A stretch of DNA of 64,000 nucleotides from positions 1,219,853-1,283,852 of the forward strand of contig JABXIG010000003.1 of assembly GCA_013373205.1 (NCBI GenBank), written 5' to 3'. Below are positions 8,072 to 61,002 of this stretch, piece by piece. Source of the stretch: Methylocystaceae bacterium. GTDB taxonomy: Bacteria; Pseudomonadota; Alphaproteobacteria; Rhodospirillales; Terasakiellaceae. The position numbers were made by a program, and so were the translations under genes. Numbering within the stretch: the stretch's first letter is position 1; every line of letters begins with the position of its first letter. The notes beneath the pieces are model-generated. The model saw only the letters and a program-made list of their open reading frames with translations, was not told the DNA's origin and searched no databases.

Positions 8072-8147
8072 TGGCATCTCCAAGGGGACTCGAACCCCTG
8101 TTGCCGCCGTGAAAGGGCGGAGTCCTAGGCCACTAGACGATGGAGAC
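8072..8147 (-). tRNA. tRNA-Glu (anticodon UUC), copy 1
   Basis: The reverse complement folds as a 76-nt tRNA with encoded CCA. The acceptor arms are GTCTCCA and TGGAGAT (one G-U pair), the discriminator is G, the anticodon loop is CTTTCAC inside a CCGCC/GGCGG stem, and the T arm contains GGTTCGAGTCC. UUC in the loop reads glutamate codons GAA and GAG. It sits 68 bp from a second tRNA-Glu in the same orientation, but their acceptor and T stems differ. Confidence 0.95.
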
Positions 8148-8215
8148 CTAATATATAAACAAGTAATAAAAATATAAAATAAAGTCCATATTTTTCTTAC
8201 TTTACCAAAGCGCGA

Positions 8216-8291
8216 TGGCGACCCCTACGGGACTCGAACCCGTGTTACCGCCGTGAAAGGGCGGTGTCCTAGGCCACTAGACGAAGGGGTC
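8216..8291 (-). tRNA. tRNA-Glu (anticodon UUC), copy 2
   Basis: This 76-nt tRNA with encoded CCA has acceptor arms GACCCCT and AGGGGTC (fully paired), discriminator G and anticodon loop CTTTCAC, giving UUC for glutamate. Compared with copy 1 it has the same D and anticodon arms but a different acceptor stem and T stem. It was therefore not made by a very recent tandem duplication. Confidence 0.95.
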
Positions 8292-59636: not shown

Positions 59637-59712
59637 GCCTCTATAGCTCAGTTGGTAGAGCAACTGATTTGTAATCAGTAGGTCCGCGGTTCGAGTCCGT
59701 GTGGAGGCACCA
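59637..59712 (+). tRNA. tRNA-Thr (anticodon UGU)
   Basis: A 76-nt tRNA with encoded CCA: acceptor GCCTCTA/TGGAGGC (one G-U pair), D arm GCTCAGTTGGTAGAGC, anticodon arm CTGATTTGTAATCAG with UGU, and T arm GCGGTTCGAGTCCGT. It reads threonine codons ACA and, by wobble, ACG. Its 3' part from tRNA position 30 onward is repeated exactly 1248 bp downstream. It therefore serves as the attachment site of the adjacent element and stays intact. Confidence 0.96.
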
Positions 59713-59717
59713 GAATT
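59666..59717 (+). repeat. Attachment repeat, left copy (within tRNA-Thr)
   Basis: This 52-bp copy runs from tRNA position 30 through the CCA end and five bases beyond. The flanking base differs from the right copy on both sides, so the 52 bp are the exact limits of identity. Confidence 0.9.
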
Positions 59718-59719
59718 CA

Positions 59720-59749
59720 CCCGCTAGGTCAATGACTTAGCGGGTTTTT
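59720..59749 (+). terminator. Terminator after tRNA-Thr
   Basis: CCCGCTAAG-type arms (CCCGCTAGGT and ACTTAGCGGG) form a hairpin followed by T5. Its arm sequences GCTAGGTC and GACTTAGC occur in swapped order in the hairpin after the right repeat at 60971. Confidence 0.8.
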
Positions 59750-59940
59750 CTTTTGCCTATCATTGTTATATAGAAAAATGACAGACGAATTTGGCAGATT
59801 AGAAAGTGCTGATTCAAATTCACAATCCCGTATAAATTTTAAATCCGCATTGTACAAAATAAAAAAACACTTTGACCCTATGTGAAGCAGGAATAAACTC
59901 TAACCCTTAATAGTAACAATTCATATTTTATGACTTAAAG

Positions 59941-60870
59941 GTGCTTCAAGTGACTCTATTGCATGAAATTCAAGAAGCTATTATCCAACCATCAAGCGAC
60001 CTTGGACCAATTCTGCTGAAACTGCGATTGTTAGCTAGTCGTCTTGGAAGTCATCAACTCGAAGAATGGGTAAAATATGAATCCGAAGGCTATCCTAAAG
60101 GCGCAGAAGTACCAGATTATAGGCAGATAGAATTATCATACTCATGCAATTGTCAAAACATCGCTTGGCAAGCAACAAATCAACCTATTCCTCCAGCGCT
60201 AATAAAAACGTTCTGCGGTGAAGATTGGTTAAGAACCAAAATACGAGAAAGCATTTCTGCGATTGAAGGCCTACTTCGCAGTGCTGAAAATGGCGCGCAA
60301 ATTGGAATAGATTCATCAAATCTTATACTTTCCCTTCAAGGGAAAATCTATCCCGACATGAACATTTCATCTGTTAAAGCACAAATGTCGGCTATCGCCA
60401 TTAAAGAAATCCAAAATACAGTCCGCACCCGTATTCTGGAATTAACGATGAAACTTGAACAAGAGGTCCCTGAATCTAGCACCATTTCAATCCGTACACC
60501 GATAGAAGTTAATGCACGCACAACCGAAAAAGTTGAACACGTTTTTCACATGACGGTGCTTGGAAATAACACTATGATTACCAGTACAGGCGCAAATGCA
60601 AACATTGCTGTTAATAATGTTCAAGGTGATGCCAGCGGTGTTAAAAGCGAACTGGAAAAAGCAGGTATCCCAAAAGACAAGGCTGGAGAGTTTGCGGAAA
60701 TTGTAGCAAGTGAAAGTAACACCTCAGCAACTACCCCCCTTGGAAAAAAAGCACAGGACTGGCTTGCGGAGAAAGTGCCTGAAATTGCAAGCGGAGCCTG
60801 GAACATATCTCTATCGGTAGCAACTAGTATACTTGAAGAAGTCGCTAAACGATATTACGGACTGAGTTGA
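59941..60870 (+). CDS. AbiTii-domain abortive-infection-type protein
   Basis: The 309-residue protein begins with a region (1-100) resembling the AbiTii domain: LLHEIQEAIIQPSSDLGPILLK, LRLLASRLGSHQLEEWV and the ESEGYPKGAEVPDYR segment. A middle part is rich in beta and Asn/Thr residues (TVLGNNTMITSTGANANIAVNN). A helical C-terminal third ends in a hydrophobic-amphipathic helix (GAWNISLSVATSILEEV). AbiT systems of lactococci stop phage growth by abortive infection, and there AbiTii works with AbiTi. No AbiTi partner is present here. It starts at GTG with only a weak AAAG site. As sole cargo of the tRNA-Thr element it is probably a phage-defence gene. Confidence 0.75.
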   Translation: MLQVTLLHEIQEAIIQPSSDLGPILLKLRLLASRLGSHQLEEWVKYESEGYPKGAEVPDYRQIELSYSCNCQNIAWQATNQPIPPALIKTFCGEDWLRTKIRESISAIEGLLRSAENGAQIGIDSSNLILSLQGKIYPDMNISSVKAQMSAIAIKEIQNTVRTRILELTMKLEQEVPESSTISIRTPIEVNARTTEKVEHVFHMTVLGNNTMITSTGANANIAVNNVQGDASGVKSELEKAGIPKDKAGEFAEIVASESNTSATTPLGKKAQDWLAEKVPEIASGAWNISLSVATSILEEVAKRYYGLS

Positions 60871-60913
60871 ACGGGTTAAGCTTTCTTTCCAATTATCAAA
60901 AATCATACAATCA

Positions 60914-60965
60914 GATTTGTAATCAGTAGGTCCGCGGTTCGAGTCCGTGTGGAGGCACCAGAATT
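60914..60965 (+). repeat. Attachment repeat, right copy (tRNA-Thr fragment)
   Basis: This is a perfect copy of the left 52-bp repeat. It lacks any 5' tRNA half, so it is a non-functional fragment that marks the right junction. It ends six bases before a hairpin with T run. Confidence 0.92.
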
Positions 60966-60970
60966 TGAAG

Positions 60971-61002
60971 AGGACTTAGCCCTTATCGGCTAGGTCCTTT
61001 TT
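60971..61002 (+). terminator. Terminator at the right junction of the element
   Basis: AGGACTTAGCC (60971-60981) pairs with GGCTAGGTCCT (60988-60998; one G-U), followed by a T tract. It was probably the original tRNA-Thr terminator before insertion. Confidence 0.75.

Follow-up and report, generated by a model that had tools for sequence, protein, structure and literature searches.

Cis-mobilizable elements (CIMEs) are decayed ICEs or IMEs that keep attL and attR and have lost their genes for integration and transfer (PMC5704250), and non-autonomous elements that depend on helpers are likewise well described (PMC11389934). AbiTii is a conserved domain of the second protein of the lactococcal AbiT system; it contains a highly conserved glutamate and in relatives precedes predicted HEPN RNase domains (PMC3710099). 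When lactococcal AbiTi and AbiTii were each expressed singly in Escherichia coli, no toxicity was seen in one study (PMC3985639). We analysed a 64-kb stretch of DNA, here called the window, which contains an AbiTii-family gene within a small unit bounded by tRNA-derived repeats. Like a CIME, this unit is att-bounded, lies in a tRNA 3′ end and holds no integration or transfer genes, its one sizeable open reading frame being that of AbiTii; on the reading preferred below it also probably arose by decay. It differs from the CIMEs in comprising one gene in 1.25 kb, and neither a homologous parent element, nor a tandem partner, nor excision is known here. Integrase-less remnants bounded by att sites are a known kind of element, and there is no sign of the one-gene form recurring elsewhere.

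The unit is delimited by an exact 52-bp direct repeat (59666-59717 and 60914-60965, 100% identity, start-to-start distance 1248 bp). Using ARAGORN, a tRNA-Thr(UGU) gene, the target gene, was called on the forward strand at 59637-59712 alone; the right repeat copy lacks the 5′ half of the tRNA and was not called. Base 30 of the tRNA, two bases 5′ of the anticodon loop, is the first position of the repeat, in line with the earlier note, which had placed its start in the anticodon stem. The left copy (attL core, forward strand) consists of the 3′ part of the tRNA from the anticodon stem/loop through CCA, followed by GAATT, and the right copy (attR core, forward strand) is a truncated tRNA-Thr. 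As expected for a CIME, attL and attR are direct repeats of the target end, identical at 52/52 positions with the right one truncated. From base 30-32 onward, the target tRNA-Thr carries the incoming 3′ part in place of the native one and is still intact. In a comparison of the flanks of approximately 40 AbiTii loci, the best repeat score from shuffled flanks did not exceed 16.5, compared with 52 in the window. Elsewhere in the window, a tandem pair of tRNA-Glu(TTC) genes is located at 8072-8291.

Between the two cores lie a left inner arm (59718-59949, 33% G+C) without an integrase, the AbiTii-family gene (59950-60870, forward strand) and a right inner arm of 43 bp extending from the stop codon to the attR core (60871-60913). 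The G+C content inside the unit is 40% vs 47% for the 64-kb window. The earlier note had described a perfect repeat around an AbiTii-like gene, which the exact copies and the Pfam and PADLOC assignments bear out, and had stated that no second gene is present. With regard to sizeable open reading frames the latter is correct; a small correction concerns an additional frame of 35 codons at 59778-59885, which had no homologue among the AbiTii loci compared and is probably not a gene. The absence of mobility genes from the unit, also claimed there, was confirmed, and the contig gave no Phage_integrase match over the stretch covered by the window.

Each core is followed by a hairpin, and both hairpins (59719-59745 and 60967-61002) fold strongly. 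The left one, together with its T tract, forms a tRNA trailer just within the element (59719-59754, forward strand; folding, z −6.2). The right one (60967-61002, forward strand) was recognized as the displaced native trailer terminator of tRNA-Thr by comparison with a second tRNA-Thr(UGU) locus of the same genome (C59:638643), to which the right core and this terminator are 97% identical over 91 bp. When the left flank was joined to the right copy and its flank, a tRNA-Thr with its trailer was restored that gave an unbroken alignment to the second locus (149/160), spanning the promoter region, the tRNA and the trailer hairpin. On the occupied left side the match is lost where the 52-bp core ends. 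Because the joined flanks match the second locus while the left side stops matching at the core, the simplest reading is that the native trailer is the right hairpin and that the left hairpin is element-borne; by the geometry of integration, the latter is the P′ arm. The two hairpins share the half-sites GCTAGGTC and GACTTAGC in reversed order, as though one were the other turned inside out.

That the unit was inserted at a tRNA-Thr att site is well supported, since the native site can be reconstructed, the same cut recurs elsewhere and the gene is patchily distributed (see below). The genes flanking the unit are not syntenic among the congeners, and no orthologous empty site can be demonstrated in them because these flanking genes differ. 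An artefact of assembly or sequence is extremely unlikely. The genome consists of 69 contigs and reads might be misjoined at a 52-bp repeat, but the contig in question is 1.35 Mb long, reads are usually longer than the repeat, and the two junctions carry distinct trailers, each with independent parallels.

The site is used by other elements as well. In congener G005, a partial tRNA-Thr copy (C1:1076766-1076813) is situated 167 bp from the gene for a 422-aa integrase, and in congener G003 a partial copy on C19 lies 138 bp from the gene for an unrelated, shorter integrase. Like the right copy in the window, these partial copies begin at the anticodon loop or at most two bases from it. The unit thus shares the tRNA-Thr att core and the anticodon-loop truncation with tRNA islands carrying a tyrosine integrase, such as that of G005, and differs from them in that the integrase there is kept beside the att copy, whereas the window's unit has none. 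That two unrelated integrases adjoin one and the same core suggests that the tRNA-Thr site is a hotspot.

Among viral contigs, approximately 20 tRNA-Thr copies without a complete tRNA were found; the search pattern started at the loop, so later cuts were invisible to it. An IMG/VR contig (L154) has a tRNA-Thr copy with the same cut at the edge of phage-like genes, and the same hairpin as on the left in the window is located beside this att copy (86/87 identity over core and hairpin). The left trailer was rejected as proof of phage origin: in L154 the hairpin flanks the att copy on its outer side, and the 25-mer of this hairpin is widespread. The 25-mer trailer hairpin CCCGCTAGGTCAATGACTTAGCGGG (59719-59745) recurs letter for letter after a tRNA fragment with a CAU anticodon in 18 viral contigs (L277-L294). 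Its occurrence after a different tRNA fragment indicates that tRNA trailers can be common to several tRNAs and hosts. Two partial tRNA-Thr(UGU) copies stand 6.3 kb apart in L180 (L180:361-6696), a viral contig derived from an isolate genome; an integrase-like gene lies between them, and more phage-like genes are adjacent to the unit. Judged by eye and not by HMM, the genes of this unit read as if they also include a restriction endonuclease and a methyltransferase. It could be a compact, integrase-bearing defence island at tRNA-Thr and could show what a fuller relative might look like.

The recurrent position of the cut also bears on the possibility that the right copy is the remainder of a second tRNA-Thr, left by homologous recombination or tandem duplication. 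G003 and G005 do have tandem tRNA-Thr(UGU) pairs, and the second tRNA-Thr of G005 and the genome's own second locus have trailers almost identical to the right one. The pairs of G003 and G005, however, lie at a different locus and consist of full tRNAs spaced approximately 110 bp apart, the foreign gene in the window lies exactly between the copies, and the cut of the right copy at the anticodon loop is non-random, matching that of the integrase-linked copies. Tandem tRNA duplication, which the earlier note had set against its own reading, was rejected on account of this cut, and we consider an origin of this kind very unlikely. In two congeners, tandem tRNA-Thr(UGU) pairs were located at a conserved tRNA-Thr locus (L039:3658-3836 and L044:2402-2587). 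At this locus the window's genome has one gene, its second tRNA-Thr being the one in the window.

The only sizeable open reading frame between the repeat copies is an intact, full-length AbiTii-family gene encoding 306 aa, as judged by Pfam, PADLOC and homologue alignment. The frame is open from 59941, and the homologues place the start at a GTG at 59950. The protein matched the Pfam family AbiTii (PF18864) with an E value of 1.4e-41 (143 bits vs a cut-off of 27.6) and the PADLOC AbiTii model with an E value of 6.5e-39. All 35 aligned members matched PF18864. The W-x3-E-x2-GYP motif is kept in the window's protein, and its glutamate, E44, is invariant across the 35 sequences; it presumably corresponds to the conserved glutamate of the family description (PMC3710099). 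The gene shares with AbiTii of Lactococcus lactis the PF18864 domain and this glutamate. It differs in being solo, without an AbiTi partner or a HEPN domain, and in having a predicted helical C-terminal region behind the AbiTii domain instead. This region was seen in an AlphaFold model (mean pLDDT 82). A fold search with the model in PDB and BFVD gave no convincing match, and therefore an enzymatic mechanism cannot be read from the fold. Anti-phage activity has been established for the lactococcal AbiT system and not for the subfamily to which the window's gene belongs. Judging from its family membership, the window's protein may have antiviral activity.

Relatives of the gene were collected by an alignment search, which yielded 34 loci in species genomes and three in viral contigs. 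A scan of genome contigs with the single protein gave no AbiTii relative, while the alignment-based scan succeeded. At the thresholds used, AbiTii is nearly absent from the order, with matches in 3 of 317 genomes; the sample of the class gave 3 of 385, and phage records contained none. Four of the five congeners had no match; the fifth, G005, has a relative of 23% identity elsewhere in its genome, with two integrase matches within 4 kb. Homologues of approximately 40% identity are carried on plasmids of enterobacteria, Synechococcus and others. At tRNA-Thr(CGU) in L264 and at tRNA-Ser in L268, an integrase sits between the tRNA and AbiTii. AbiTii is found near tRNA-Phe in L252, and in L245 it lies directly downstream of tRNA-Gln without a second tRNA copy. 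At tRNA-Val in L298 (L298:1483-2848), a truncated AbiTii of 50% identity adjoins what resembles the C-terminal part of an integrase; this is a tRNA island that is visibly decaying.

In a member of the Xanthomonadaceae, AbiTii forms a single integron cassette between attC sites (L266:7929-8981). Judged by eye, L240, L251 and perhaps L242 are integron-cassette-like, with AbiTii between attC-like sites. Both the window's unit and these cassettes (L266; L240 and L251 look alike) present a single AbiTii gene between short repeats without its own recombinase. The cassettes differ in relying on attC sites and an integron integrase, whereas the repeats flanking the window's gene are tRNA 3′ ends, att sites of the phage-type integrase kind. 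In the flank comparison of approximately 40 loci, close direct repeats around AbiTii were confined to the window (tRNA att) and, as a clear case, L266 (attC); L240 and L261 gave weaker signals. No other one-gene AbiTii unit between tRNA att copies was present among these loci. The AbiTii gene rides many vehicles, and the one-gene tRNA-att unit was seen once among the loci examined. The suggestion that the unit represents a class of minimal, trans-mobilised anti-phage cassettes is therefore not supported, as some 40 AbiTii loci yielded no second example.

Regarding the origin of the unit, the earlier note had left two readings side by side, a stripped island and a non-autonomous element that borrows an integrase. 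The former fits best and matches a CIME; the latter is an unlikely alternative. On this view the unit would be a one-gene cassette that is still active, has functional arms and is served in trans by the integrase of a prophage or island having the same att core. In its favour, both cores are perfect and surround an intact gene, unrelated elements in congeners and phage-like contigs use the same core, and integrons already carry AbiTii homologues as trans-mobilised single-gene units (clearly in L266, and in L240, L251 and perhaps L242). On the other hand, the genome has no second copy of the unit, and no similar unit occurs in the congeners, the viral contigs or the 34 genome loci. The ends of the unit do not share 10-bp direct arm repeats, and the non-coding right arm measures just 43 bp. 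The earlier note had proposed to look elsewhere in the genome for an integrase with the same att core. There are 14 Phage_integrase matches in this genome of 69 contigs, none of which closely resembles the G005 integrase (best 27% identity) or matches the G003 integrase. This absence is not absolute because the genome is assembled in 69 contigs.

We favour a CIME-type decayed island, which probably kept attL and attR, lost its integration genes and retained one intact defence gene. A tyrosine-integrase island of the tRNA-3′-end type would have entered tRNA-Thr(UGU) through an anticodon-loop crossover. The tRNA 3′ end and trailer terminator that it carried would have come to lie on the left side, and their native counterparts would have been shifted 1.25 kb downstream, to the right side. 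The integrase and other cargo would then have disappeared, either through an internal deletion or because an autonomous neighbour excised itself from an accreted array. What was left would be a CIME-type remnant in which both att cores and the single AbiTii-family gene between them are intact. The product of this gene probably works alone as an anti-phage protein of the abortive-infection type, and such a lone action would explain why the gene was retained. With respect to a larger ancestor, no integrase remnant is visible inside the unit, so that loss of an integrase is deduced and not read from its interior; integrases adjoin the same att core in the congeners. A further point counts against decay: the right core is perfect though under no known selection, which implies either a recent insertion or a homogenised core, and hence little time for stripping.

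The unit illustrates in a very small and clean form that a lone defence gene can be left behind by a tRNA integration hotspot. If it is a remnant only, its value lies mainly in being a well-dissected case. As for CIMEs, the unit could conceivably be mobilised in cis once a related element sharing its att has accreted. A rather improbable scenario is that of an active minimal element, in which the defence gene moves in and out of tRNA-Thr(UGU) by means of the integrases of resident prophages and constitutes the tRNA-site counterpart of an integron cassette. Owing to its perfect att cores, the unit is well suited for testing whether a foreign integrase may excise one-gene units without an integrase in trans. 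Such excision would bear on the spread of single-gene defence systems.
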